From: a virus
Virus record (IMG/VR): IMGVR_UViG_3300031902_000061
Coordinates: 1 to 21,587 of that record
Reading direction: 5' to 3' (one strand)
Length of the DNA stretch: 21,587 nt
Notes under the pieces: model-generated
The model's database searches: none
Told to the model about the DNA's origin: nothing
Seen by the model: the letters and a program-made list of their open reading frames with translations, nothing else
Made by a program: the position numbers and the translations under genes
Shown here: positions 956 to 15,337 of the stretch, piece by piece
How positions within the stretch are numbered: the first letter of the stretch is position 1
How the letters are laid out: the number at the start of each line of letters is the position of its first letter

Positions 956-985
956 CACCTAGCGCGGGAGGAGGGCGGCTAGGTG
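956..985 (-). other. second hairpin at the convergent junction
   Basis: Perfect 8-bp stem CACCTAGC (956-963) / GCTAGGTG (978-985) with a 14-nt loop. It overlaps the stop codon of the SIS gene and sits just before the terminator hairpin in the leftward transcript. It has no U-tract of its own. It may help termination or protect the mRNA 3' end. Confidence 0.5.
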
Positions 986-1476
986 GTAGTACCTGGATTT
1001 ACAATGGCATGTAGAATCGTCAGCGTTGCAAGTTCAACTGTACCGTAATTGGTGGACGGTATCCAGTAATTTATGTCGCCCATCTTGCGGATTGGATTGT
1101 CTGGACTAAATCCAGTAAAGGTCACGATCCCGCACCGATGCCCACGGGCCTCCTCGATGGCGTTTGCAATGCTGATGCTGTTCCCGCTTGAGCTGATCGC
1201 AATCAGGGTGTCGCCAGGGCGGGCATGGACTCGGATGTGACGGGAGAACACTTCGCCGTAGCCGTGGTCATTGGCGGCCATGGTCAGGGACGCATCATCC
1301 CCGACCACGAACGCGCTCAGTCCCTGCTTGAGCATGTCAGTGGCGATATGGGAACAGATGGCCCGTGATCCGCCATTCCCGACCAGCCAGTGATGGTTAT
1401 GGCCAGGGCGCCACTCTCCGTCCGATTTGGTTTGACTGATTGCGCCATATACATTCTCTGCAAATCTCATATCCAT
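979..1476 (-). CDS. SIS-domain sugar-phosphate isomerase, GmhA/DiaA-like
   Basis: SIS proteins bind and isomerise phosphosugars. The closest match is phosphoheptose isomerase (sedoheptulose 7-phosphate to heptose 7-phosphate), the first step of heptose precursors. Visible marks are GNGGS (33-37), a helix with AND (68-70), the phosphate-binding SSSGNS (95-100), and a C-terminal helix with ELATLTILHAIV (148-159). At 165 residues it is somewhat shorter than GmhA (about 190), missing part of the N-terminal helix. GGGAGG lies 8 nt before the ATG, and the start overlaps the FkbM gene by 10 nt. It is the last gene of the leftward sugar operon, directly before the terminator. The substrate could be another ketose phosphate; the family is clear. 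Confidence 0.85.
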   Translation of the reverse strand: MDMRFAENVYGAISQTKSDGEWRPGHNHHWLVGNGGSRAICSHIATDMLKQGLSAFVVGDDASLTMAANDHGYGEVFSRHIRVHARPGDTLIAISSSGNSISIANAIEEARGHRCGIVTFTGFSPDNPIRKMGDINYWIPSTNYGTVELATLTILHAIVNPGTTT

Positions 1477-2201
1477 GGCGGATTCCTCCCGACGAACAGT
1501 GACCCTTCCCGGTTCTTGTGCGGCATGTCATTGATGCTGGTAACCCGGTGCCAGTCGATCTTCTGTGACCACATGGGCACGTCTATGGCCTGGAAGTGGT
1601 CCATTATCTTCATTGCATTCTCCACGTTGCGCACCTCCATGATGGCGTCCATATGGTTCATGACCTCGGATGTCATGGTGGCGCACAGTTCAGCCTCGTT
1701 GCCCTCGCTGTCGATCTTGGCGAAGTCTGTACCCTCCCACAGGGACCGGCAGTCCACTACCTTGACCGTGACAGTCTCACGCGGGCCGTATGAGTCCTTG
1801 TAGCCGACGATGTGATTACCTGTGAGGTTATTTAGCACACGTACGAACTGCGCCTGCCCGTCATAGGTGTGTACTGCCACATTGAACGGTGCTACGGTCA
1901 TGACGCCATTGGCGAATAGGTTATCGAGGAACTTCGGCCAGTGTTCAGGATCAGGCTCGAACGCACGCACAGTCCAGCCCAGCTTGCTCATCAGGATCGA
2001 GTGCAGGCCAAGATTGGCACCGATATCCAGCACGTTATGCCAGCGCGTGCGATTGTCCCAGTACAGTTTCAGGATCATCAGCTCGGACGGTCCGAACAGG
2101 TCCAGGCTGTCGATGCGTCCCATTTGATAGTATGGGAAATTTATCTTGCCATAGGGGCCAAGATGCTCGGTTATCAGTTCCTGCGCTTTCTCACGGCTCA
2201 T
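1467..2201 (-). CDS. FkbM-family SAM-dependent methyltransferase
   Basis: Transfers a methyl group from S-adenosylmethionine, usually to a sugar hydroxyl in glycan or polyketide pathways. The Rossmann motif I is VLDIGANLGLHS (57-68), motif II acid FEPDP (81-85), and the FkbM signature KIDSEGNE (162-169) is intact. 244 residues is usual for the family. AAAGGAG precedes the ATG by 8 nt. The preceding 64-aa gene stops on the base next to this ATG. Its place among epimerases, an SDR and a SIS isomerase points to O-methylation of a sugar on a surface glycan or a glycolipid, but the acceptor is unknown. Confidence 0.9.
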   Translation of the reverse strand: MSREKAQELITEHLGPYGKINFPYYQMGRIDSLDLFGPSELMILKLYWDNRTRWHNVLDIGANLGLHSILMSKLGWTVRAFEPDPEHWPKFLDNLFANGVMTVAPFNVAVHTYDGQAQFVRVLNNLTGNHIVGYKDSYGPRETVTVKVVDCRSLWEGTDFAKIDSEGNEAELCATMTSEVMNHMDAIMEVRNVENAMKIMDHFQAIDVPMWSQKIDWHRVTSINDMPHKNREGSLFVGRNPPWI

Positions 2202-2396
2202 TCATGGCTCCTTTGATTGGCTCGCCTCACTGACGAAGGCAAGATAGTGCTGCATCTGGTCTCGACTGATAGTGCGTATGGCGTATATGAGGACGCCTGT
2301 CGCCACCATCCAGTCCTCGGTACACCATTGTTTGACGTCCTTGCCGACTGCCGTACCCAGCGCAGACAGAATAGGATCATCTTGCAGTGTTCTCAT
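2202..2396 (-). CDS. 64-aa hypothetical protein coupled to the ThDP enzyme
   Basis: Not recognised. A small mostly helical protein with one Cys and a central hydrophobic stretch (MVATGVLIYAI, about 30-40), too polar overall to be a clear membrane protein. It starts at an ATGA overlap with the stop of the upstream ThDP C-terminal ORF (2393-2396). It ends in SKEP, its last codons lying in the SD region of the FkbM gene. This double coupling is the main evidence that it is translated. Confidence 0.6.
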   Translation of the reverse strand: MRTLQDDPILSALGTAVGKDVKQWCTEDWMVATGVLIYAIRTISRDQMQHYLAFVSEASQSKEP

Positions 2397-3535
2397 ATAG
2401 GCGCGATTATCATCTCGTTCCTGAACTCCTCCCGATCAAGTTGCGGATCCGGGTCTTCGAGTGGCTGACCGTACTTGCACTGAGGGATGAGCTGGGCGTC
2501 GGGATGGATGAATATTTGCATGAATCCGTGTCCGTCAAACGAAAACAGGTCTTTTAAGTCGCGGCAATCTTCTCCCAGTCCGACTATTCCGAATGCATGC
2601 GCCAGCTCATCAAAATCAAGATCAGGCAATCCACCATCAATGCTAGTCGAGTAGTAGTTCCCATCAAGCCACTGTCTCTGAGTCTGGCGGCACATCGCAT
2701 GGCCCCCGTTGTTCAGCAGGATGATCTTGATGTTGAGGTTCCACCGGGCAATGAGGGCAAGATCGGAAAGGGACATTAGCGAGGAACCGTCCCCGGTAAT
2801 CAGGATTATTCTTCGCGTGGTCGCAAATGATGCGCCAATAGCAGCCGGGATACCGTACCCCATCGGAGTGTAATTCCATGCGTGCAACATCCTTTCTCCC
2901 TTGAATGGGAATGCCTTGCATACATATCCTATTGCGGTCCCGGTATCACTGACGATGATGTCATCCGGTGTGGTGTATTTGGCAATATCGCGCATCAACT
3001 GGTACGGATTGACTCCAGGCCAGTCCACTTCAGGCTCGTCCCACATGGCCCGCCACGTCTGAATCTGGTACTTCCACGAGTGGGATCGCAGCTTGAACGT
3101 GTACTCGTTCATCTCTGTCAGGAACGCGCCCACGTCCATGCAGATGCCGGCCTGTAGCGTGACCCCGACCTTCTCCATCTTGTCGATCTCGGACTGATCC
3201 TGGTCGATCATGTAGATCAGCGCTTCACGTGCGAAGTGTTCTCCGTGTCCTGTCGCCTTGGTGTCCAGCCTGCACCCGAGCACGCACAGACAGTCACTAT
3301 TCTGGATGGCGAAGTTGGCCGCACGATTGCCATGCGTGCCGAACCCGCCTGCGAACAGGGGATGATCATGCCGGATCAGGTCGATTGCGCCCCAGGTGAC
3401 CGCGACGGGTATGTTCATGTCCTCTGCCACGCGCAGGGCCAGCTTCTCATGCCCACGCACACCTGCTCCCCAGATGAACATGGGACGTTGCCGGGCTTCC
3501 AGTTCTGCGCCGACTCCTTCGATGTCATTCATCAT
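2393..3535 (-). CDS. ThDP-dependent enzyme, acetolactate-synthase-like: central and C-terminal (PP) domains
   Basis: Second half of an acetolactate-synthase-type carboligase/decarboxylase. Residues 14-150 fit the central domain (WGAGVR at 22-27, DTKATG at 91-96). Residues 180-345 are the diphosphate-binding PP domain. The ThDP/Mg motif begins at GDGSS (248-252) and closes with NN (275-276), the GDG-x(about 25)-NN pattern. It begins where a full-length enzyme would have the linker after the PYR domain, and together with the next ORF gives 552 residues, a normal full length. The start is ATGATG overlapping the previous stop, with GGCGGAAG ahead. In glycan clusters, such enzymes can add a two-carbon unit to a keto-sugar (as YerE does) or make another keto acid; the reaction here is inference. 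Confidence 0.88.
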   Translation of the reverse strand: MMNDIEGVGAELEARQRPMFIWGAGVRGHEKLALRVAEDMNIPVAVTWGAIDLIRHDHPLFAGGFGTHGNRAANFAIQNSDCLCVLGCRLDTKATGHGEHFAREALIYMIDQDQSEIDKMEKVGVTLQAGICMDVGAFLTEMNEYTFKLRSHSWKYQIQTWRAMWDEPEVDWPGVNPYQLMRDIAKYTTPDDIIVSDTGTAIGYVCKAFPFKGERMLHAWNYTPMGYGIPAAIGASFATTRRIILITGDGSSLMSLSDLALIARWNLNIKIILLNNGGHAMCRQTQRQWLDGNYYSTSIDGGLPDLDFDELAHAFGIVGLGEDCRDLKDLFSFDGHGFMQIFIHPDAQLIPQCKYGQPLEDPDPQLDREEFRNEMIIAPI

Positions 3536-4050
3536 ACTTCCGCCCTCTGCAAGTCGTCTGGAATATCAATCAGGACGGGTCCTTTGCGTCCGGTCTGAGC
3601 GGCGCATAGAGCTGCGGCGAGGATTGGTCCGATTGCTTGCGCTCCTTCGAGTCGTCTTGCATATTTCGTGATGTCTCTGACCATTCCGGTGATCGGCGTG
3701 TCCTGGAACCCGTACTGTCGGACTCCGAACCTTTCACTTTGTCTGTGCGTTGCCACCGCGCCCGTGATGTAGATGACCGGGACGCTATCGTAATAGCTGC
3801 TAGCGATTGCCGTGATGAGGTTCGTTGCTCCCGGTCCAGACGTGGCCATAGCACAGCCAAGGCCGGTAAGACGAGCATACGCATCAGCAGAGAAGCCAGC
3901 GTTGCACTCATGCGTCGATGGGATGAACTGGATTTGCGTGGCATCATAGACTCCATGGATGAGGTGCAGATTTGCTCCACCATTTACACCGAAGATGTGG
4001 CGGATACCCTGTTGCTCAAGGAACTTGGCGACGAAGTGGGAGAGCTTCAT
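3532..4050 (-). CDS. ThDP-dependent enzyme, acetolactate-synthase-like: N-terminal (PYR) domain
   Basis: First half of the same enzyme, complete as a PYR domain. The catalytic glutamate that activates the ThDP aminopyrimidine is present in THECNAGFSADAYAR (E48). SGPGATN (71-77) and GFQDTP (114-119) are family motifs, and the ORF ends at IDIPDDLQRAEV, exactly where the PYR domain ends in one-chain homologues. Known split ThDP enzymes (for example sulfopyruvate decarboxylase) work as two subunits that assemble at the shared active site. A GGAGGG site precedes the ATG, and both ends are ATGA overlaps. Either a true two-subunit form or a broken one-chain gene; intact motifs and a clean junction favour the former. 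Confidence 0.88.
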   Translation of the reverse strand: MKLSHFVAKFLEQQGIRHIFGVNGGANLHLIHGVYDATQIQFIPSTHECNAGFSADAYARLTGLGCAMATSGPGATNLITAIASSYYDSVPVIYITGAVATHRQSERFGVRQYGFQDTPITGMVRDITKYARRLEGAQAIGPILAAALCAAQTGRKGPVLIDIPDDLQRAEV

Positions 4051-4733
4051 TCGACCCTCCGCAGTTTGTACAGATCCATGATGTCAGCATCCAGATTCAT
4101 TATTTCCATCTTGATGTGCCAAGGATCTGATGCGCAGATGTTGCGCCCTCCAACTAAAGATTTTGGCGCATCCATACACCACTTGAGGCACCCATATACC
4201 CGCTCAATCGGTGTGAACTTCTGCGCCTCGATTGCTGCTGCCAGCTTGGGATTCGGCCATGCTGCCTTGAGCGTGCCCCTGTGAATCTTGGTATTGACTA
4301 TCCCCGGCCCGAGTGCGAAGAACTTGGCATCCGGTGTCTCATGGTCAAGCTGCTCGACTGCCTTGAGGACGGCCATCTTGCTCACGTTGTAGGCACTGTA
4401 TCCGTCCATGATCATTTGAGGATTGGACCCGGCCAGCCAGCATATGCTTGCCCCTGCGTTATGCTTGGGCCACAGACGGCGCAGCAGCTCGATGGGCAGC
4501 AACAGGTTCGACTTCATGGTCTCGTTCCACTCGAACATGTCATTGTCCATCCACAGCCCGACCGGTGTGATGCGCCCGACCGCCACGATGCACAGATCCC
4601 AGAATCCGAACTGTTCCATACTCTGGAGTTCACCGCGTGCCCAGCCCTCGACGTTCCAGCCATCAGCCTGGAGCAGTGGTGTCAGTTGCTGGGCGATGTC
4701 TGAGTGTGACCCGATTATGATGGCGTTTTTCAT
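4047..4733 (-). CDS. short-chain dehydrogenase/reductase (SDR)
   Basis: NAD(P)-dependent oxidoreductase, probably acting on a keto-sugar or on the product of the neighbouring ThDP enzyme. The 228 residues hold a shortened cofactor loop (IIGSHSDIA, 6-14), a catalytic Ser (AGS, 101-103) and YNVSK (Y115, K119), the SDR Tyr/Lys pair. PG at 168-169 is the usual motif after the active site. The N-terminal glycine loop reads GSHSDIA rather than the textbook TGxxxGIG, as is common in polysaccharide-cluster SDRs. It is joined by ATGA overlaps to both neighbours. In the yersiniose pathway a ThDP carboligase is followed by a reductase, so the pairing here is suggestive. Confidence 0.85.
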   Translation of the reverse strand: MKNAIIIGSHSDIAQQLTPLLQADGWNVEGWARGELQSMEQFGFWDLCIVAVGRITPVGLWMDNDMFEWNETMKSNLLLPIELLRRLWPKHNAGASICWLAGSNPQMIMDGYSAYNVSKMAVLKAVEQLDHETPDAKFFALGPGIVNTKIHRGTLKAAWPNPKLAAAIEAQKFTPIERVYGCLKWCMDAPKSLVGGRNICASDPWHIKMEIMNLDADIMDLYKLRRVE

Positions 4734-5626
4734 GGTCTATGCTCATATGTGAGTGATTGATCCTTCAGGACGTCCCAGTGGTCATTGATCCATTTCCTGA
4801 CCTCTTCGATGCCGTCAGGCATGGTGATGGCAGTCTGCCAGCCCAATGCCTTCATCTTGGTCGAGTCGAGGATGTAAGCCGGGTCCTTGCCGGGCCGGTC
4901 TGGAATGACTTCGACCACATTATTCCAGTCCATTCCCATGCCAGCACAGATCAGCCTGACCAGCGTCTCTATGCGCAGGGTGATGTCGGACCCGACGTGA
5001 TACGCCTCGCCCACCTCGCCATGCAGCATGACCCGCCAGTACGCATCGCACATATCATGCACATGGATGAACTGTCGATAGCTGGCCCCGCCACCTTCTA
5101 GCGGGAACCGGATACCGTGCTTGATGCTGGCCATCACCTTGGGGATGAGCCTGTACAGTTGCTGGCCTGGCCCGTACACGTTGCAGGCCCGCGTGAACAC
5201 GACCGGGAAGCCGAACGATTTGCGATAGGCTTGCAGCATCCACTCAGCAGCGGCCCTGCTGACTGCGTATGGCGTGCTGGGCTGGAACGGCGTGTCCTCC
5301 TTGATGGGTGATACGCCAGCATTGCCGTAGACCTCTGGCGTGCTGATGTGGACGTACCGCTTGAGGTGTGGCAATGCCCCGTGTCGGTAGGAATCAGCGA
5401 TGCGGATGGCGAAATCCAGATTGCTCTCCATGTACCCGTGCGGATAGTCCCAGCTTGGCGCGACCACGTTAGCCGCTGCAAAGTTCACGATGTATTCGGT
5501 CTGATTGCCCCACAGAAAGACCTGCCGCGCCGATTGCTCACATACTTCGCACTCACGCTCTCGCAGATATTCGCAGAAGTGACGGCCAGAGAATGAAGAG
5601 GCGCCGATTACCAGGACCTTAGACAC
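4730..5626 (-). CDS. extended-SDR nucleotide-sugar dehydratase/epimerase-like enzyme
   Basis: NAD(P)-binding sugar-nucleotide enzyme of the RmlB/GalE superfamily. The GTG start at 5626 is chosen because the protein then opens directly with the Rossmann loop (GASSFSG, 8-14) and has GGTGG upstream; the longer frame only runs through the HNH gene. Further marks are HISTPEVYG (about 93-101) and the RxCNVYGPGQ type motif that contacts the nucleotide. Two active-site features are unusual: the SDR Tyr-x3-Lys reads YAVSR (Y120, R124), and the dehydratase Asp in the STDEVYG-type motif is Pro. It may therefore not be a standard 4,6-dehydratase. It overlaps the HNH stop by 8 nt and the SDR by ATGA. Confidence 0.83.
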   Translation of the reverse strand: MSKVLVIGASSFSGRHFCEYLRERECEVCEQSARQVFLWGNQTEYIVNFAAANVVAPSWDYPHGYMESNLDFAIRIADSYRHGALPHLKRYVHISTPEVYGNAGVSPIKEDTPFQPSTPYAVSRAAAEWMLQAYRKSFGFPVVFTRACNVYGPGQQLYRLIPKVMASIKHGIRFPLEGGGASYRQFIHVHDMCDAYWRVMLHGEVGEAYHVGSDITLRIETLVRLICAGMGMDWNNVVEVIPDRPGKDPAYILDSTKMKALGWQTAITMPDGIEEVRKWINDHWDVLKDQSLTYEHRP

Positions 5627-5954
5627 GATTAAGCCACCGATTGGCGAAATTGTTCTTGGTATTGCCTCTGCCTTTTTTCCACATGTCCAAAGCATTATCC
5701 CTTCTTGTTCCCAAAAATAAATGATCAGGATTTACGCATGGAGGGACATCGCATTTGTGCAAGACATCAATGCCTTCAGGAATTGCGCCTCTGTATAGCG
5801 TCCATGCCAGCCGATGAACGAAAGTATTACCCGGCAGCGGATGATTGTTGATAAGGCCATGTCCGAACGATCTGGTCGCGCCAAGCCAAATCCAGCAACC
5901 GGCTTCGGGAATTTGCTCTATGCGAGAATCCAGCCATGTTTTGTCTCGTATCAT
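5619..5954 (-). CDS. HNH endonuclease (HNH_3-type), likely free-standing homing endonuclease
   Basis: A small nuclease of the phage HNH_3 type that cuts DNA with a metal held by a beta-beta-alpha fold. GCWIWLGA (19-26), FVHRLAW (45-51), then VLHKCDVPPCVNPDHLFLGT (64-83) and N/D of RRDNALDMW form the conserved core. The ATG at 5954 is chosen over the longer frame because it makes an ATGA overlap with the epimerase stop and has AAGG 7 nt upstream. It lies between two sugar-enzyme genes, sharing 8 nt with the next. This is typical of mobile endonucleases that settle in phage operons without breaking neighbours. Confidence 0.87.
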   Translation of the reverse strand: MIRDKTWLDSRIEQIPEAGCWIWLGATRSFGHGLINNHPLPGNTFVHRLAWTLYRGAIPEGIDVLHKCDVPPCVNPDHLFLGTRRDNALDMWKKGRGNTKNNFANRWLNRV

Positions 5955-6862
5955 GAGTCCTTGATCCCCTGTGAGGTCATCCAGTTGAGATTGTTCCACC
6001 TCGGATCGTCCACAAGTTCCTTCGTCTGCCATGCCCGCATCACTTCCAGGATGGCGTCGTGGATGGTCTTGCGAGGCCGGAACCCAGTAGCCAGCAGCTT
6101 GTCACTGTTGACCTGATAGGACCGCGCATCACGTACCGGCGTCACGATCACCTTCGCGTCAGTCCTGACCCGTACCATGTCGGCAATTTCAGCGAGTGAG
6201 TGATTCTCGAAGCCCGCATTGAATATCCCGGTATGCTCGGGATGATCCAGCATGAACAGATACAGGTCGCACATGTCATCGATGTGGATGGAGGGACGCA
6301 TCTGCTGTCCACCATGGAGCGTCATCACACCGTCACGCATGGCCTGAACGGTCAGCATGTTGACGGTCAGGTCCAACCTCATCCTCGGGGCCAACCCGCA
6401 GATAGTAGCCGGTCGAATAATTTGCGGACGCAGTTCCGGATATGACATCAGGACGCGCTCGGTACACATCTTTGTTTTGTTGTAGTCCGATAGCGGGCTG
6501 AGTGACATATCTTCCGTGACAAGGCCCCGATCCGCACCGTACACACTTACCGATGAAGCGTATATGACCCTCGTTCCCGCTTTGCTCGCAAGTTGGCACA
6601 GTTGCTGAGTAGCTAAACACGAAGTTTCCCATGATAACCTCGGATAGTGGCTGACCGACGGATCGTTGCTGATCGCAGCCAGATGGATGATGGCCTCGCA
6701 GTTGTCCAGGTGCGTGATAGTGCGCACGTCCTGAGACTTGAACGGCAGCGAGTAGAACCACTGCACATCGATAGGTACCACCTCATGACCAGCCTGAACC
6801 AGCCTGCCTGATAGATTGGTGCCGACATAGCCTGCGGCACCTGTGAGCATGACTCTAGCCAC
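5951..6862 (-). CDS. NAD-dependent nucleotide-sugar epimerase/dehydratase (extended SDR)
   Basis: Acts on an activated sugar (UDP-, GDP- or dTDP-linked), using bound NAD to oxidise and re-reduce the ring. The Rossmann loop GAAGYVG is at 8-14 and the acidic adenine-ribose contact near VPID. AIIHLAA is at about 57-63, ASSVSVYG (102-109) holds the catalytic Ser, and YNKTK supplies Y127/K131. A C-terminal substrate domain with IHIDDMCDLY is present. GTG at 6862 is the preferred start, with GGAGG 5 nt ahead; GTG at 6868 touches the SD and ATG at 6850 is less well spaced. It heads the compact sugar block, and unlike its neighbour it has a full catalytic triad. The substrate is not predictable. Confidence 0.88.
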   Translation of the reverse strand: MARVMLTGAAGYVGTNLSGRLVQAGHEVVPIDVQWFYSLPFKSQDVRTITHLDNCEAIIHLAAISNDPSVSHYPRLSWETSCLATQQLCQLASKAGTRVIYASSVSVYGADRGLVTEDMSLSPLSDYNKTKMCTERVLMSYPELRPQIIRPATICGLAPRMRLDLTVNMLTVQAMRDGVMTLHGGQQMRPSIHIDDMCDLYLFMLDHPEHTGIFNAGFENHSLAEIADMVRVRTDAKVIVTPVRDARSYQVNSDKLLATGFRPRKTIHDAILEVMRAWQTKELVDDPRWNNLNWMTSQGIKDS

Positions 6863-6971
6863 GCGCACCTCCCATGTCAGGCCACTTCTGGGGCGGCGGT
6901 GCTGGTTTCTTGGCTGGCAGTTTGGTGTTGACTGGGCGTTTCGTGACTGGCTGCTTCGGTTTCTGTTTCAT
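6855..6971 (-). CDS. 38-aa Lys/Pro-rich basic microprotein
   Basis: ORF with a good site (AGGAGAG, spacing about 5-8) before its ATG. The product is strongly basic, almost free of hydrophobic residues and rich in Lys, Pro and Gln (starts MKQKPKQPVTKRPVNTK). It is likely disordered and could bind nucleic acid or phosphate-rich partners. Its 3' end overlaps the start of the epimerase gene and contains that gene's SD. Not recognised. Support rests on the SD and the overlap. Confidence 0.5.
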   Translation of the reverse strand: MKQKPKQPVTKRPVNTKLPAKKPAPPPQKWPDMGGARG

Positions 6972-6992
6972 GTGTCTCTCCTGTAGTTAAGG

Positions 6993-7062
6993 TGAGGGGG
7001 CAGGATTTGCACCTGCCGATCAGGCCCATCCTGTTTACCGCACCGCGTGTGCGCCGCCCCTC
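6993..7062 (-). ncRNA. tRNA-like cloverleaf, not an obvious functional tRNA
   Basis: On the minus strand this gap folds into a cloverleaf. The acceptor is GAGGGG/CCCCTC (6 bp). A D-type arm can form as GCGC/GTGC. A central arm is CAGG/CCTG with only 5 loop bases, and the T-type arm is a perfect GCAGG-TGCAAAT-CCTGC. The T arm and acceptor closely resemble a real tRNA 3' half. However, the T loop has G at position 55, the anticodon stem does not give 5 bp plus a 7-base loop, U33 is missing and CCA is not encoded. A base one position out gives a C-A first pair, as in initiator tRNA, but no CAT anticodon is placed correctly. A decayed tRNA or a tRNA mimic are both possible. Confidence 0.3.
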
Positions 7063-7110
7063 GTTTATCTTGGCTGACACCAGCAGTCTTTGCTCAAAAT
7101 GTGTTCGCGT

Positions 7111-7191
7111 TCATCCATAGCCTGCAAAATATCCGATTAGTACGGCAGCTAAAAGCAGCAAAACCGCCACAGTCCATTCAGTCGCAGTCAT
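7111..7191 (-). CDS. 26-aa membrane peptide
   Basis: A very short ORF with a strong site (AAGGAG, 7 nt before ATG). It encodes MTATEW followed by one hydrophobic helix (residues 7-23) and ends GYG. It starts at an ATGA overlap with the 51-aa gene and uses the same 19-nt SD/start sequence that appears at 7340. Single-pass phage peptides of this size can act on membrane proteins or lysis timing; no role can be assigned. Expression is well supported by the junction although the length is extreme. Confidence 0.5.
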   Translation of the reverse strand: MTATEWTVAVLLLLAAVLIGYFAGYG

Positions 7192-7343
7192 GGCTTCTCT
7201 CCTTCCTCATAAAGCTGCAACCAGCAGCATTTCGCATTGCAAGTTCTATGTTCCTTTTCGAGATAGAACACGACCCACCCACGACGCTTGAGATAGTTGG
7301 CCATCCATCTATTTGGGATGGTGATGATGTTGCTCCATATCAT
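7188..7343 (-). CDS. 51-aa Cys- and Trp-containing hypothetical protein
   Basis: Not recognised. It has a basic middle (YLKRRGWVVFYLEKEHRT, about 17-34), a cysteine cluster CNAKCC (35-40) that could hold a metal, and the tail EEGEKP that is shared with the upstream gene because both end in the same SD/stop cassette. ATGA overlaps occur at both ends. AAGGAG lies 7 nt before the ATG. Small, basic and cysteine-bearing, it could bind nucleic acid or a host protein; this is inference. Confidence 0.6.
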   Translation of the reverse strand: MIWSNIITIPNRWMANYLKRRGWVVFYLEKEHRTCNAKCCWLQLYEEGEKP

Positions 7344-7720
7344 GGCTTCTCTCCTTCCGGGTATTTGAAACTAAGGCTGGTTCGTTTCAACACCGCATCC
7401 AGTTTAGAGCGCAACTCCGCGCACTCTGCCGCCATCTTCGCGTTGGCCTCGCCATTGATGCGGAGCAATTCTCTTGCTGTGTTGAGGTCGCGCTCATATG
7501 AATTCAACTTATCGCACAATGACATGGCTCCGTAGGACAAAAATCGCTCACCATTCGAGTGTGTGACGTGATCAGGCGCGATATGCAGGAGTTCAGTAGA
7601 ACTCTCACATTTCCACGGAGTGTCACTCATGGTTTTCCAAATGCTTACATCACACTCACAGTCCGGGCAAAATCCGCTTGATAAAGGTTCCCTGTGCGCA
7701 CAGTAATTCTTGCTACTCAT
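7340..7720 (-). CDS. hypothetical protein with N-terminal zinc-binding site and coiled coil
   Basis: 126 residues. The N-terminus carries CAHRE...GFCPDCECD (C7, H9, C18, C21, C23), which could bind one zinc. The middle is polar. The C-terminal third (about 70-112) has heptad-like Leu spacing and many charged residues (ELLRINGEAN, ELRSKLDAVL), consistent with a coiled coil. It resembles the Ead/Ea22-type early accessory proteins of phages in layout, but no domain is recognised. It begins at an ATGA overlap with the 78-aa zinc protein and has GGGGGA upstream. Confidence 0.65.
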   Translation of the reverse strand: MSSKNYCAHREPLSSGFCPDCECDVSIWKTMSDTPWKCESSTELLHIAPDHVTHSNGERFLSYGAMSLCDKLNSYERDLNTARELLRINGEANAKMAAECAELRSKLDAVLKRTSLSFKYPEGEKP

Positions 7721-7953
7721 GACTCATCCCCCAATTCAACCTTTCGTGCGTAGCACCGTGAACAAGTGAACCATGGATCACCAAGCGGTCCGCAGGTATC
7801 GAATGTCCAACTGTGCCCACCATCCTGTTCACATTCTTGCTGTAGCTCCCTGACCTTGATGCGATAGGTCTTGTCAAAATCGGCCATGGCTACTCGCATG
7901 AAGGTCCGGCGCTCCTTGTCCAAGGCGTTGCGCTTAAGCCAGACGTCACTCAT
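7717..7953 (-). CDS. 78-aa small zinc-binding phage protein
   Basis: The C-terminal half shows a four-ligand pattern: C41, H47, then C54 and CSRC (C64, C67), in a GHSW...GDPWFTCSRCYARK context typical of small phage zinc proteins. The N-terminal half is a charged helix (DKERRTFMRVAMADFDKTYRIKVRELQQE spans residues 12-40). AGGAGG lies 11 nt before the ATG. ATGA junctions occur at both ends. A nucleic-acid or protein-binding adaptor role is plausible; function unknown. Confidence 0.65.
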   Translation of the reverse strand: MSDVWLKRNALDKERRTFMRVAMADFDKTYRIKVRELQQECEQDGGHSWTFDTCGPLGDPWFTCSRCYARKVELGDES

Positions 7954-8069
7954 GGCTTCTCATGCCTCCTATCCAGCACGTGGAGCAGGCCAGCCGTCAA
8001 CACGCCACCGAATATGAAGCAACCCCACAGTACGACCCAGAATGCGTTTTGCTGATAGCACTGGTACAT
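7950..8069 (-). CDS. 39-aa single-pass membrane microprotein
   Basis: The ORF follows the radical SAM gene by one base and ends in an ATGA overlap with the 78-aa gene. CAGGAG precedes the ATG by 7 nt. The product has a short polar N-terminus (MYQCYQQNA), a hydrophobic segment at 10-30 (FWVVLWGCFIFGGVLTAGLL) and a basic tail ending HEKP. Not recognised; membrane location is inferred from hydrophobicity only. Confidence 0.55.
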   Translation of the reverse strand: MYQCYQQNAFWVVLWGCFIFGGVLTAGLLHVLDRRHEKP

Positions 8070-8070
8070 G

Positions 8071-10080
8071 TCAGTCTCCTGCCAGGTTAGAGCTGCGTCG
8101 ATAGGATGTCTCGAAGCCACGGTCAGTCGTGATCCCGTCCGCCGTCATCTTGCGAAACAGTTTCTTGATGTGAGCGCGCAACATGATCCGACCTAATCCT
8201 GTCGTGCTGGTCCCGTACTGGTGCACGAGCTGGTCAATCATGGCTCGTTGTTCGGTGTCGTGGCTGAACTCTATTTCCACAGTCCGAAGATGACCACCTG
8301 GATCTCCGCAAAAGTCCATTTCCAGCAGCGCAGGGAAATCGTAATCAAAGCATCTGGACTGTCCTGGCTCAGTCGTAAGCAGGTCACGCTTGCGCTCAAG
8401 GCTGAATATCTTGGCTTGATCCAGATAGTGCTGGTACTGGGGAAAGATATCGGACGCGATGGAATACATGGCTTCATGCAACGGCTCCTGTAGTTTGAAG
8501 AACGCGACTGCCTTGGCATTGAATAGTTCATTCGTGCCCAACTGTTCCTGCAGATACTCGTCGAGATTGGACTGCGCGAAGGCCAACGCCTCGTCACGGC
8601 TGGCCCACAGTGGCTTTATCGAATCTTCACGGAAGTGATCGTACAGGCTGCCGACGAACTGCCTTCTTTTGGAGTGGAAACGTAGTAGTAAACTGAACCA
8701 CTCGTAACTAGTGAATCCACAAAGTCCAAATAGTTCTCGAAACAGACCGGTGTTGTGAATAATCTCGATGGTAAGGTCAAGTTCCCTGCACTCGATATAA
8801 TCGGTGAAAGCGAGGGAATTCTGCTTGATGACGATTTCTTCGATCTCGGCGGCATTGAATGTCTCTCCTCTGAACTGGTAACGCCCGAAGCATCGGGGCA
8901 TGATCCGAACAGCCGTGTGCAGGCCGAACTTGTCGCGCGTCTCCTGCGTGTTCATCTCGGTCTCGGGAAGCATGATGACCTGGTACATGCGCAGGTATGA
9001 CACGCCACTGTTAACCGCATCCCGCAGGCTCTGGGTGTGCGCAGCCACGCTGTCGCCGGGCAGGTTGAGGATTATTTCGGCATACGTGTTGGCGTCGATC
9101 CTGGAGCCTTCCTTGGCAACGGCCATCAACTGATCATGACTGATGTTGTCTCGCTTGATATTCTTCAGGATGGTCGGATCAGTTGTTTGCAGAGAAGCAC
9201 TGACTCCCATCTTGCCCCCGACGATCTTGGCGAACTCTAGTACGCGCTCCTTATTGTTCTTGCCTCCAGAGCAATGGATATAGTTCGGCCATCCGTATTT
9301 CTTCTGCACTGCTGCTATTTCATGGGCAATCGGCAGGGCATTGGAGAGCATCCCTGTATTGGCATCGGAGAAGTACAAGTCTTGAATTGTTCCGACTCGT
9401 TTGGCGCAGTATTCCAGTTCATCAGCCAATGAAACTTTGCGGGCAACCTTGTTCCAGAACTCTAGTCCCTCAGTACAGAACGAGCAGGAAAAAGGACATC
9501 CACGTGTAGAAGCAAGTAGAGGAATCAGAATTCCATCGAAGAATTTATCCATCAGGCCGGTCGTGTACGGTGATGGCAGATCATCCAAAGATTTGACCCG
9601 AGGCATCAATGGAGTCTTGATCAGTTGACCTTCAAACATGAAATGCGTGCTGGGCATCTCGAAAGTCATCTTGGCGACATCTGGCTGCATGTCCACCATT
9701 TGCAACGTGCGTAACAGTTCGACGGTTGCAAGTTCTCCTTCCTTTTCCACGTAGAAATCCACCCATGGAAACAGTTGCCAGTAGTTGTCTTCCCAGTTAG
9801 GACCGCCAGCTATGACAATCATGTCAGGCTTGAGAAGTTTCATACGGCGTGCGTACTCCATGCCCAGATTGGTATTCCACGAGTAGACGCTGAGTCCTAG
9901 CACGTCTGGTAATTCATTGCTAGTGGCCTCGTTCAAGTCATTAGGCATCTTGAACAGTTCGACACGGGCGCCAGGAATGTCTCGCAGGATCGTGGCACCT
10001 ATCATGCCTATTGCCAGTGGCATGACATTGGAGGCCACAATTTGTCCAGTGTGCGTACCGTCAAATAAATAAATCAGCAT
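8071..10080 (-). CDS. B12-binding-type radical SAM enzyme
   Basis: Large (669 aa) radical SAM enzyme. The cluster motif is C195-x3-C199-x2-C202 in STRGCPFSCSFCTEG, which binds the 4Fe-4S cluster that cleaves SAM. The N-terminal 130 residues look like a cobalamin-binding-type Rossmann domain (IAGGPN at 90-95, a degenerate VEKEGELATVELL), but the DxHxxG cobalamin-ligand motif is not evident. SPYTTG (170-175) and LPETEM further on fit the TIM barrel of this class. The C-terminal 250 residues are not recognised. ATG at 10080 follows GGGA; GTG at 10083 overlaps the HNH stop. In this sugar operon it might methylate or rearrange a sugar or lipid; the substrate is unknown. Confidence 0.88.
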   Translation of the reverse strand: MLIYLFDGTHTGQIVASNVMPLAIGMIGATILRDIPGARVELFKMPNDLNEATSNELPDVLGLSVYSWNTNLGMEYARRMKLLKPDMIVIAGGPNWEDNYWQLFPWVDFYVEKEGELATVELLRTLQMVDMQPDVAKMTFEMPSTHFMFEGQLIKTPLMPRVKSLDDLPSPYTTGLMDKFFDGILIPLLASTRGCPFSCSFCTEGLEFWNKVARKVSLADELEYCAKRVGTIQDLYFSDANTGMLSNALPIAHEIAAVQKKYGWPNYIHCSGGKNNKERVLEFAKIVGGKMGVSASLQTTDPTILKNIKRDNISHDQLMAVAKEGSRIDANTYAEIILNLPGDSVAAHTQSLRDAVNSGVSYLRMYQVIMLPETEMNTQETRDKFGLHTAVRIMPRCFGRYQFRGETFNAAEIEEIVIKQNSLAFTDYIECRELDLTIEIIHNTGLFRELFGLCGFTSYEWFSLLLRFHSKRRQFVGSLYDHFREDSIKPLWASRDEALAFAQSNLDEYLQEQLGTNELFNAKAVAFFKLQEPLHEAMYSIASDIFPQYQHYLDQAKIFSLERKRDLLTTEPGQSRCFDYDFPALLEMDFCGDPGGHLRTVEIEFSHDTEQRAMIDQLVHQYGTSTTGLGRIMLRAHIKKLFRKMTADGITTDRGFETSYRRSSNLAGD

Positions 10081-10562
10081 CACAAATTCCCGTGTTTGTG
10101 GTACTTGCGTTTAGCGTCAATGTACGCTTGATGAGCAATGGCAGCAGTGGGAAACGTTCCCAAGTGCTTCTCTATTCCATTCACTACGATTCTAGAGTGG
10201 TACTTGTTGCCGCGTTTCCGCACGCCCAAAACACCAGTGCTGTTGTGCTTCTTAGGATTGTGCAGGTTCTCATTGTTGGCATATGGTGAAACATCTCGCA
10301 AATTCTCAATGCGGTTGTTCAGCTTGTTGCCGTCGATGTGGTCTATCTGTTGATGCGGCCATTCACCGTACACATACAACCACGCCAAGCGATGCAAATA
10401 GTATGGACGCCCATCTATTGATGTTTTTCTGTAGCCATGACTTGAGATGGACCCAGAGACGCGGCCAACACTGATTCGTCTAGATGTGACCATAAGCCAA
10501 GTAAACAGTCCAGTTTCTGGATCGTAATGCAACACATCTCTCAATCTTTCAAGACTAAGCAT
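10080..10562 (-). CDS. HNH endonuclease with C-terminal AP2-type DNA-binding domain
   Basis: Homing-endonuclease-type protein. It has YLHRLAW (55-61), IDHIDGN (73-79) holding the metal-binding His/Asp, N83 and IENLR (85-89) as the HNH core. A compact AP2-like domain follows (about 107-155: STGVLGVRKRGNKYHSRI..., then GTFPTAAIAHQAYIDAKR), which recognises DNA sequence. This pairing is frequent in phages. The ATG at 10562 overlaps the VRR-NUC stop by 8 nt and its own stop overlaps the radical SAM gene start. It thus marks the border between replication-type genes and the sugar operon, which may be how it spread. Confidence 0.92.
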   Translation of the reverse strand: MLSLERLRDVLHYDPETGLFTWLMVTSRRISVGRVSGSISSHGYRKTSIDGRPYYLHRLAWLYVYGEWPHQQIDHIDGNKLNNRIENLRDVSPYANNENLHNPKKHNSTGVLGVRKRGNKYHSRIVVNGIEKHLGTFPTAAIAHQAYIDAKRKYHKHGNL

Positions 10563-12321: not shown

Positions 12322-12477
12322 TTAACCGTTCCCGTCCCCGGACCCGGACCCGTCCCCGTACCCGTCCCCGTCCCCGTCCCCGTCCCCGGACCCGTACCCG
12401 TACCCGTACCCGTCCCCGTACCCGGACCCGTCCCCGTCCCCGGCCCCGTACCCGGACCCGGCCACGGTATTACTCAT
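12322..12477 (-). CDS. 51-aa glycine-X repeat protein encoded by a GGGNNC repeat
   Basis: The ORF starts with ATGAGTAA, overlapping the preceding stop by 8 nt, with GAGGG 4-8 nt upstream. After MSNTVA every second residue is Gly, always GGG, for 22 repeats. The other residue is Asp (9), Tyr (6), Ser (5) or Ala (2), always with C in the third position. The result is a disordered GD/GY/GS peptide that ends NG and TAA at 12322. No family is recognised. Tyr/Gly-rich low-complexity peptides can self-associate, but that is inference. The frame, SD and overlap favour translation on this strand over the Pro-Val or Arg-Thr readings of the other strand. Confidence 0.5.
   Translation of the reverse strand: MSNTVAGSGYGAGDGDGSGYGDGYGYGYGSGDGDGDGDGYGDGSGSGDGNG
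12331..12462 (-). repeat. 22-unit hexanucleotide repeat GGGNNC with G-quadruplex potential
   Basis: 22 consecutive 6-bp units. On the minus (coding) strand each is GGG followed by GAC, TAC, TCC or GCC. GGG runs are separated by exactly three bases throughout, the ideal spacing for G-quadruplexes in the leftward mRNA and the non-template DNA strand. Only positions 4 and 5 of the unit vary. It lies within the Gly-X gene and just upstream of the exported Cys-rich gene. Confidence 0.9.
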
Positions 12478-13249: not shown

Positions 13250-13417
13250 TCACTGTACCCGCTTGTCAAGCGGATTACGCAAAATATATTCAGCCAGTGC
13301 TACGGCATACCGCCAAGTGGGTGATTCTTCGCATAAACCCTCGTTACGAATCATGTCTACAAGCCCTTTAACAGTGGATTCCAGCTCATCGGTACGCATC
13401 TTGTGAAGGTCGATCAC
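13250..13417 (-). CDS. 55-aa hypothetical, first gene of the leftward early operon
   Basis: GTG at 13417 is chosen because GGAGG lies 8 nt upstream; TTG at 13432 and ATG at 13399 have no such site. The product is helical and acidic (DLHKMRTDELESTVKGLVDMI) with AEYILRNPLDKRVQ at the end, matching no family I know. It starts about 40 nt downstream of the likely start point of the minus-strand promoter, making it the first message of the operon. Confidence 0.6.
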   Translation of the reverse strand: MIDLHKMRTDELESTVKGLVDMIRNEGLCEESPTWRYAVALAEYILRNPLDKRVQ

Positions 13418-13443
13418 GGATATTGCCTCCAATATTGTTGCGG

Positions 13444-13472: not shown

Positions 13473-13493
13473 GCAATAGCTTTAGGATGTCAA
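13466..13493 (-). promoter_or_regulatory. candidate sigma70 promoter for the leftward early operon
   Basis: Minus-strand TTGACA (13493-13488, exact consensus), 16-bp spacer, TAACAC (13471-13466, weak). Transcription would begin near 13459 and reach the GTG at 13417. It overlaps the rightward promoter head-on, so the two should exclude each other. Confidence 0.4.
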
Positions 13494-13526
13494 GCGAAAT
13501 GTGTGGTAGAGTCTGGTCTGTAGTTC

Positions 13527-13586
13527 GGATGGCTGGTGTCCTGCCGGTAACAGGCCCAGCTATCCACCCAACCTTTACCGGAGGTG
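13527..13586 (+). promoter_or_regulatory. mRNA leader hairpin with loop-to-SD pairing (pseudoknot, riboregulator-like)
   Basis: A 10-bp stem (13527-13536 with 13556-13565, one G-U pair) carries an inner 4-bp stem CCTG (13540-13543) / CAGG (13551-13554). The 7-nt loop is CCGGTAA (13544-13550). This loop is exactly complementary to TTACCGG (13575-13581), which overlaps the SD GGAGGTG (13580-13586) of the gene at 13592. Formation of the pseudoknot would hide the first SD bases. The layout is that of a translational switch. It matches no riboswitch class that I can recall. No protein gene occupies the segment. Confidence 0.55.
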
Positions 13587-13591
13587 AAAAA

Positions 13592-13756
13592 ATGTGCGTT
13601 ACCACTGACGACGTTTGCATTCGTGTCTATCTGAATCCAGACAACAACATCGTTGTTGCCAATAAAGATCAAGACGAGTTCGTAGTCATACCCTCATGTG
13701 ACGTGGATGCCCTGATCAAAGCCTTGCGGCTGGTTGCGAGGTGGTCAGATGCCTGA
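13592..13756 (+). CDS. 54-aa hypothetical, first gene of the replication operon
   Basis: ATG at 13592 sits 5 nt after a strong GGAGGTG, so the longer frame starting at 13403, which crosses the promoter and hairpin, is not used. The product has an N-terminal CVTTDDVC (2-9), beta-strand IRVYLNPDNNIVVANKD, and a helix DALIKALRLVARW. Not recognised. Its SD is the target of the leader pseudoknot, and its stop overlaps the next gene (ATGCCTGA). Its translation may therefore set that of the replication protein. Confidence 0.65.
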   Translation: MCVTTDDVCIRVYLNPDNNIVVANKDQDEFVVIPSCDVDALIKALRLVARWSDA

Positions 13757-14456
13757 TCGAATCATTCGAGACGAACTGCTGGAGTCGGAACGATGGCTAT
13801 CCCTTAAGGACAATGCCGACCGACTGGCATACATTTCACTCCTGCTTAAAGCCGATGCGCTGGGTAACTTCTCAGCCGAACCGTTCCGGCTGATGAGGTT
13901 GTGGCGAGACTTCGGGATTAACACGGACAGCCTGGTAGCCAAAACCCTAACCGAGCTGACCAACCATGACCTCATACGCTTGTATCAAGTTTGTGCAAAG
14001 GAGTTTTTGCACATCCCTAGATTTGGTCAGCGTTTGCGTCATGTTAAGCGAATATTCCCTCTTAGCCCATGGACTACAGACCAAGAAAAACAAACACTTG
14101 CAGATAATTCACCTGACGAAAGACAGGTGCAAGACAGGCTTGCGTCTGCTGAAGGGAAGGGAAGTGAAGGGAAGGGAAGAGATAAACCCTCTTGTTCAAA
14201 TCCTGACGGATTCGAACGCTTCTGGGATGCATATCCGAAAAAGCGCAGTAAGCAATCGGCAATGAAAGCTTGGAGCAAGATCAAGCCATCCCAAGCCATT
14301 CAGGAAAAAATACTCACCGTGTTACCTGCTTTAGCCAAATCCAGAGACTGGACGAAGGAGGGAAGGCAGTTTTGTCCATTGCCAGCCACATGGCTGAATG
14401 CGGGTGGGTGGGATGATGAAATCGTTGCTCAACAGGACACGAGGGACTTCGTATGA
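13749..14456 (+). CDS. phage replication initiator / helicase-loader-like protein
   Basis: 235 residues. The N-terminal half (about 1-105) looks like the winged-helix of phage replisome organisers, with LLKADALGNFSAEPFRLMRLWR. A charged linker follows (EGKGSEGKGR, 135-144). The C-terminal domain has FERFWDAYPKKRSKQSAMKAWSKI (155-178) and CPLPATWLNAGGWDDE (209-224), as in phage O/DnaT-type proteins. Its likely job is to bind the origin and bring in the helicase encoded next. ATG at 13749 has GAGGTGG upstream and overlaps the previous stop by 8 nt. It is coupled to the helicase by ATGA. Confidence 0.85.
   Translation: MPDRIIRDELLESERWLSLKDNADRLAYISLLLKADALGNFSAEPFRLMRLWRDFGINTDSLVAKTLTELTNHDLIRLYQVCAKEFLHIPRFGQRLRHVKRIFPLSPWTTDQEKQTLADNSPDERQVQDRLASAEGKGSEGKGRDKPSCSNPDGFERFWDAYPKKRSKQSAMKAWSKIKPSQAIQEKILTVLPALAKSRDWTKEGRQFCPLPATWLNAGGWDDEIVAQQDTRDFV
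14150..14179 (+). repeat. tandem 15-bp purine repeat inside the initiator gene
   Basis: TGAAGGGAAGGGAAG occurs twice in perfect tandem (14150-14164, 14165-14179), giving a long purine run. It encodes the EGKG linker. In lambda the origin iterons lie inside the O gene, so this might be an origin element, but a simple linker repeat is equally likely. Confidence 0.6.
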
Positions 14457-15337
14457 TCGACAACGAAAAGGATCTGATCAAGCGAGTCAATGAGCTATAC
14501 AAGCGAGGCTTGCCTACTGGGTATTCGACCGGATGGAAATCGTTGGATAGCCTGTACACCGTGGCACCTGGTCAATGGACACTGGTGACCGGTTTCCCTG
14601 GACACGGGAAATCAGAATTCGTCGATGCGCTCATGGTTAACCTGACCCGGCACGGGTGGAAGTTCGTGGTATGGTCAGCGGAGAACTTGCCTCAAGAAAT
14701 ACACTTGGCAAAGCTGATGGAAAAATACGCCATGAAGCCATTTTCTGAGGGACCGTCCGACAGGATGAATACCGATGAAAAGGACCTGTCACTGGCCGTG
14801 GTGAATAACAATTTCAAGTTTGTGCTGGCGTCGGATCAGATCAACGTGAAAGCGATTATCACGGCTGCATCGAACACCATGGACAACAGCAACCACACCG
14901 GACCGTGGGGACTGGTGATAGACCCATGGAACGAGCTGGAGCACAATCGCCCTGCAAACAAAACCGAGACTGAGTACATTTCGGAATCACTGTCGAAAAT
15001 CAGGGCATGGGCTAGGGAATGGAACGTTCATGTTTGGATCGTTGCACATCCAGCCAAAATGCAACGGGACAAGGATGGCAAAGCACCCAAGCCAGGACCG
15101 AATGACGTTGCCGGATCGCATCACTGGTGGGCAAAATGCGATAACTCGATAACGGTGTGGAGGGATGTTAGTGCATCGCACAATTTGGTCGAGGTGCTGG
15201 TGCATAAGGTCAGGTTCAAGCACATCGGCAAGACCGGTCTGGTGGAGCTGAGATATTCACGCAAGACAGGAACGTATTCGACAGTCGAATCCGTTGTTTC
15301 CATGGGAGATTACAAGCATGCAAAAGATCCAGATTGA
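14453..15337 (+). CDS. DnaB/Twinkle-type replicative helicase (no primase domain)
   Basis: RecA-fold ATPase that unwinds the fork as a ring. Walker A is GFPGHGKS (47-54), Walker B LVIDPWNELEH (154-164, D157), with the sensor VAHPAKMQRDKDGK (197-210) and GSHHWWAKCD...VWRD (221-238), which places it with gp4/Twinkle-type helicases. At 294 residues it is just the C-terminal helicase domain. The N-terminal 45 residues have no zinc finger or TOPRIM primase, so a host primase is presumably used. It is linked to the initiator gene by ATGA. Its 3' end overlaps the next microprotein by 20 nt. Confidence 0.9.
   Translation: MIDNEKDLIKRVNELYKRGLPTGYSTGWKSLDSLYTVAPGQWTLVTGFPGHGKSEFVDALMVNLTRHGWKFVVWSAENLPQEIHLAKLMEKYAMKPFSEGPSDRMNTDEKDLSLAVVNNNFKFVLASDQINVKAIITAASNTMDNSNHTGPWGLVIDPWNELEHNRPANKTETEYISESLSKIRAWAREWNVHVWIVAHPAKMQRDKDGKAPKPGPNDVAGSHHWWAKCDNSITVWRDVSASHNLVEVLVHKVRFKHIGKTGLVELRYSRKTGTYSTVESVVSMGDYKHAKDPD

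Follow-up and report, generated by a model that had tools for sequence, protein, structure and literature searches.

Leader of a phage replication operon with a loop complementary to its ribosome binding site

Can the leader of a phage replication operon hide the ribosome binding site (RBS) of its first gene, and by what kind of RNA contact? The locus lies in a virus DNA of 21,587 bases (IMG/VR virus record IMGVR_UViG_3300031902_000061), hereafter the window, which encodes a P22-like portal, an Sf6-like small terminase, a DnaB-type helicase domain protein and a replication initiation protein. The leader is flanked by a divergent ORF (start at 13432) and a 54-aa ORF (13592-13756, plus strand), which is the gene that it would directly control. 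This small ORF resembles in part the small ORF ahead of the L016 replication gene, both products having in common an IP....(D/E).LIKALR stretch (34% over 29 residues). The replication initiation gene follows (13749-14456, plus strand), the C-terminal part of its product matching PHROGs 270 and 9474, and translational coupling from the 54-aa ORF to this gene is likely because the two overlap by 8 nt. The gene of the DnaB-type helicase domain protein (14453-15337, plus strand) overlaps the initiation gene by 4 nt. No sigma-70 promoter or terminator consensus was found between positions 13300 and 13800 of the window.

The first-pass annotation had described a 10-bp stem and an inner 4-bp stem presenting the loop CCGGTAA, with its complement TTACCGG over the Shine-Dalgarno (SD) of the gene at 13592, and all of this is exact in the letters. 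On the plus strand, the outer stem (P1) joins GGATGGCTGG (13527-13536) to CCAGCTATCC (13556-13565) through nine Watson-Crick pairs and one G-U, and the inner stem (P3) pairs CCTG (13540-13543) with CAGG (13551-13554) around the apical loop CCGGTAA (13544-13550). Downstream on the same strand, ACCT (13571-13574) and AGGT (13582-13585) can form a further stem, P4, around the loop TTACCGG (13575-13581). The final GG of this loop is the start of the SD, GGAGG (13580-13584), which ends 7 nt 5′ of the ATG at 13592, and the AGG of the SD is contained in the P4 3′ strand. RNAfold draws the upstream part as one hairpin, interrupted by a 3-nt/1-nt internal loop and lacking a three-way junction (-28.1 kcal/mol over 13520-13592, z -2.8); the SD region folded alone gives -4.1 kcal/mol. 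In the nested minimum-energy fold, an upstream plus-strand stretch, GGTAGAG (13505-13511), pairs with CTTTACC (13573-13579) and is thus a possible anti-P4 strand; this alternative beats the P4 fold (-34.4 vs -30.8) with the kissing energy left out. The GGUAGAG/CUUUACC pairing leaves GAGG free and, judging from these folds, it might represent the open state of the leader.

Other parts of the window were also inspected. The minus strand of 979-10083 carries, in a phage, a sugar/surface-type gene block with SIS, FkbM methyltransferase, short-chain dehydrogenase, two NAD epimerases, a radical SAM protein with a B12-binding domain and a thiamine-pyrophosphate enzyme present as two overlapping ORFs, split at 3532-3535. 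Two HNH_3 endonucleases lie inside or adjoin this block. At 12326-12460, an array of the 6-base repeat CCGTAC (22.5 copies, 85% matches) overlies a minus-strand ORF with a Gly-Asp-Tyr-rich sequence.

Frequency of loop-SD matches in shuffled and natural leaders

It had also been claimed that stem, loop and SD pairing together are unlikely by chance. For one sequence this holds only modestly, since 400 dinucleotide shuffles of the 120-nt window leader produced a loop-SD match of at least 6 nt in 8 cases and of at least 7 nt in 3, so that a single leader gets there in about one of 130 shuffles. Of the 592 SD-bearing starts in the retrieved phage DNA, which is enriched for leaders of this kind, 28 had a match of at least 6 nt. 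The claim gains force when the full geometry is taken into account. A strict kissing scan, which demanded equal loops, full complementarity, a P4 stem and a start codon over 1.36 Mb on both strands, returned 13 distinct sites including the window, all of them belonging to one group that we refer to as the kissing-loop SD lock. Control scans with the reverse, the complement or the identity in place of the reverse complement returned 0, 0 and 1 sites. The window has no close variant, its nearest copy being 100% identical across the 401 bases that surround the leader, and support for the window's own pairs consequently comes only through the group. The window leader taken alone is suggestive only; its comparison with relatives is convincing.

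Relatives carrying the proposed lock

The N-terminal domain MPDRIIRDELLESERW of the replication protein was traced through IMG/VR to collect distinct leaders. Two homologues (L005 and L086) have the loop CCAGTA and the SD stretch TACTGG, with stems wholly unlike those of the window. A third (L073) combines the loop CCCTCC with the SD stretch GGAGGG in a single hairpin as in the window, without clean P4 flanks, and seems to be a reduced variant, as the window is. Looser fits were given by L081 (CCCAATT/AATTGGG with a 3-bp stem) and by L087/L088, in which the junction is present and the match is wobble-rich. No lock was found before the homologous genes of L075-L079, of L082-L085 and of the L097-L114 branch, and in many of these leaders the gene abuts the upstream ORF. 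Leaders that keep the gene and lose the pairings, which the first-pass annotation would have counted against a switch, therefore occur in part; the lock is frequent, not obligatory, with this replication gene.

Scanning for a pattern built on the letters of L005/L086 yielded a set biased in its loop letters; the CCAGTA shared by many sites reflects the letters used in this search. Its matches stand before DUF1376 replication genes (L115 and others, L119, L123, L125) and also before genes for homing-endonuclease-like proteins of the DUF723/treble-clef (L120, L121) and NUMOD3 (L126) types, the last of which reads like a GIY-YIG endonuclease. Specificity of the structure to phage replication is not supported, given this second class of genes. 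The downstream proteins being unrelated, autoregulation by one protein product was ruled out as a general account. RNAfold gave three-way junctions in most of these relatives.

Members independent of the CCAGTA letters were reached by three routes: DUF1376 homologues, a structural detector and the covariance model R1. Among the DUF1376 homologues, L158-L160 have CCTTTA/TAAAGG where L156/L157 have CCAGTA/TACTGG; the proteins of L158-L160 are 95-97% identical to that of L156, indicating a letter change between near-identical phages. The structural detector yielded CCTAAC/GTTAGG, and R1, built from CCAGTA members only, found CCAATT/AATTGG at 54.5 bits. These three letter sets (CCAGTA, CCTAAC, CCAATT) occur together on contig IMGVR_UViG_3300031834_000021, in locks at about 19066, 22744 and 31036, each with its own matching SD, a CCU[N6]AGG arrangement and the junction GAC...UUA. 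The copies (L209 19066-19147; L210 2845-2927 and 11137-11214) precede three similar DUF723-like genes.

Most relatives share a conserved three-way junction P1/P2/P3 in which, outside the pairs, the joining letters are fixed as well (GAC...UUA/UCA/CUA). The models R1 and R2, which describe the GAC/UUA three-way junction, do not match the window because it has no P2, the second arm. The window is thus a reduced form of the junction-type element, and it agrees with the group in having two equal, fully complementary loops, the second with the SD before a start codon, as found by the strict scan.

Loop geometry and compensatory changes

The window and the 12 further distinct sites have CCU[N6-7](A/G)GG on the SD side, itself a potential hairpin with a loop as long as the one it would pair with (7/7 for the window, 6/6 for the rest). 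By themselves the SD regions fold weakly (-2 to -8 kcal/mol), against -5 to -12 for the loop-SD duplexes, and pinning of the SD hairpin by the upstream loop is therefore to be expected. We therefore read the contact as a loop-loop kissing interaction that would stabilise the SD hairpin. In the pseudoknot proposed by the first-pass annotation the loop-SD pairing stands, but the SD partner is a hairpin loop of the same length as the P3 loop, and a kissing loop fits this better than a plain pseudoknot. A classical H-type pseudoknot, in which the P3 loop pairs a linear SD stretch and P4 is unformed, would be satisfied by loop-SD complementarity alone, and L073 without its clean P4 flanks agrees with it; we nevertheless consider it unlikely, given that CCU lies directly 5′ of the complementary stretch in 13/13 strict sites (including ones found without these letters), that the outer P4 pair is A-U, G-C or U-A in 9/13, and that the loop lengths agree.

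Covariation in stems and loop-SD pairs, which had been proposed as a check, was observed among the relatives. Across eight elements of the junction type, both partners have changed in 22 of 30 pairs, among them the outer P4 pair and four of the six kissing pairs. In their alignment, 95.1% of cells are paired as against 69.1% after shuffling and 37-46% after sliding, and 0 of 500 shuffles reach the observed value; the covariation alignments (A5, A6) were hand-fitted to the structure with N padding and lean towards it, the slid controls showing the size of the effect. Each loop pairs fully only with its own partner, with the exception of CCGGTAA/TACTGG through a G-U pair. The ability of the structure to hide the RBS of the operon's first gene is, in this way, conserved with compensatory changes. 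A stable hairpin that happens to lie near an SD with chance complementarity could account for the window leader, given the shuffle frequency and an identical nearest copy that leaves its pairs untested, but for the group this is highly improbable in view of the letter swap between near-identical phages, the three-copy contig, the strict scan and the covariation.

Searches outside the group

The sequence of the window hairpin, CCTGCCGGTAACAGG, recurs letter for letter at 37 places in IMG/VR, all unrelated except the near-identical phage. No strict lock was found in 14 leaders of named phages with DUF1376 genes, where L145 and L155 show resemblance only, and R1 over 22 named phage records gave just two weak matches, both dismissed on inspection. 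In bacterial genomes the protein scan gave nothing, the pattern scan gave five matches judged to be chance, and R2 had no match over 398 genomes of one phylum, a scan without a positive control there. A pattern with a free middle pair added three matches, none before a start codon, and these were dismissed; L118, L129 and L130 were dismissed as chance. Two other leaders have a hairpin loop matching the SD and a second upstream stretch: L023 (4380-4476; ACTCCCTA/TAGGGAG) and L052 (minus strand, about 1330-1235; TTTAGGCTC/GAGCCTAA).

The element is absent from Rfam 15, with no match for the window or its relatives; positions 13480-13620 of the window compared with all Rfam families at E up to 5 gave two unrelated weak matches only. 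That the leader fits no known riboswitch class, as noted at first pass, is thus borne out. The literature search found no paper describing this kissing-loop SD-lock element.

Proposed mechanism and alternatives

From the sequence comparisons, we think it likely that the leader acts in cis as a translational lock on the phage replication operon, in which the kissing P3 and P4 loops sequester the SD. The RNA would fold into the stable P1/P3 hairpin with its 7-nt loop and a weak P4 hairpin that combines the SD with the stretch flanking it on the 5′ side; the loops of both hairpins, fully complementary and equal in length, would then kiss and pin P4. With the GG of the SD in the kissing helix and the AGG in the P4 stem, 30S entry would be blocked or metered. 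Opening of the contact would free the SD of the 54-aa ORF and, via the 8-nt overlap, the replication initiation gene too. If anything opens the contact, candidates are a ligand, a protein or an RNase, the GGUAGAG strand upstream, or the ribosome alone. What the comparison supports is the pairing potential, which is maintained as the letters change among other, uncultured phages, together with the geometry and the place before DNA-acting genes; repression of translation, the coupling and the purpose (proteins kept low or delayed) are what the rules of SD accessibility would predict.

Whether such a lock responds to a signal separates two further readings. It is quite possible, though not probable, that the structure is a constitutive attenuator that holds potentially harmful DNA-acting proteins low in a signal-free manner. 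The downstream genes, replication initiators and homing-endonuclease-like proteins, are in keeping with this, and RBS hairpins hold down T4 homing endonucleases (PMC2988022); a plain SD hairpin would suffice for that task, however, and a junction plus a kissing loop seems over-elaborate. The junction instead invites a riboswitch-like reading, in which a small molecule, or a protein of host or phage, would make or break the kiss by binding to the junction or hairpin. The fixed joining letters of most relatives, a platform like that of cobalamin riboswitches and the anti-P4 strand upstream in the window speak for such regulation. Yet the window keeps the lock without the junction, the controlled genes have no metabolite theme in common, no riboswitch family was matched, and recent common descent may be all that lies behind the joining letters in endonuclease-type elements, so that we regard a regulated switch as rather doubtful; the ligand, protein or ribosome sensor of entry into replication that had been put forward is not supported. 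Only tentatively do we suggest a phage-specific class of RNA switches, spread among unrelated phages, whose three-way junction would read a host or infection signal while the kissing loop opens or closes the RBS of genes for homing endonucleases and replication initiators; the window would carry a minimal version of it.

The proposed translational lock adds to the known RNAs a family, absent from Rfam 15, that would control the timing or amount of phage replication-start and DNA-cutting proteins. The distinct letter sets in one phage, each with its own partner, suggest independent loop-loop locks, which could serve as orthogonal translation controls.

Comparison with known systems

Translation of IncI/IncB plasmid repZ is controlled by a leader pseudoknot in which a loop pairs with the RBS region ahead of the replication initiator. 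The lock would be alike in controlling a replication initiator through such pairing, and differs in that the repZ pairing activates translation and is under the control of an antisense RNA.

T4-type homing endonuclease genes (I-TevI, segB, Aeh1 mobE) have a single hairpin that takes in the RBS, with a late promoter inside the hairpin region, as we read the Figure 5 legend of the review (PMC2988022). Both systems would have in common that, close to a late promoter, the RBS of an endonuclease gene is sequestered at the level of translation. In the endonuclease-type relatives, by contrast, a T4-late-promoter-like TATAAATA precedes the whole element, just upstream of P1 (L121, about 1900-1910; L196, about 1480-1492; L122, about 3455-3468), so that the late transcript would carry the whole lock. 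The window leader falls outside the T4 type, as the genes under its control would be those of a replication operon.

Int-alpA RNA (RF02996) is likewise a three-way junction leader in phages, and here it lies directly before DUF1376 replication genes (L172 1411-1482; L175 1345-1413; L177 459-528; L178 1412-1483; L184 1410-1477; L185 1411-1479), L184 being above the Rfam cut-off and others below. The loop of its third arm complements both the SD region and a second stretch farther upstream; there are four letter groups, with changes on both sides between leaders. In nine int-alpA-type leaders the match of this loop to its own SD region is 5-7 nt long, compared with mostly 3-5 nt for the SD regions of other letter groups. 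Unlike the lock, int-alpA has the second complementary stretch upstream of the SD and no equal-length P4 loop was seen in it, and its core CUAG...CGAAAAG...CUG is absent from the window and the GAC...UUA group. The window has no match to the Rfam covariance model and is without the CUAG/CGAAAAG three-way junction. The loop-SD complementarity suggests that int-alpA RNA, filed as an sRNA, may act in cis as an RBS switch with a decoy site.

Cobalamin riboswitches are about 200 nt long, whereas the lock takes about 65-90 nt, with 6-7 full loop pairs, and stands before phage replication or endonuclease-like genes. It also has no cobalamin aptamer, neither the window nor its relatives having an Rfam match at a permissive E-value. 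The likeness lies in the expression platform: in the cobalamin riboswitch the L5-L13 kissing loop stabilises the RBS hairpin (PMC10653944), and in the proposed lock, likewise, the loop of an upstream domain would kiss that of a downstream hairpin and so stabilise sequestration of the RBS. By this analogy, the lock would work like the platform of the cobalamin (corrinoid) riboswitch and is not a member of that family.
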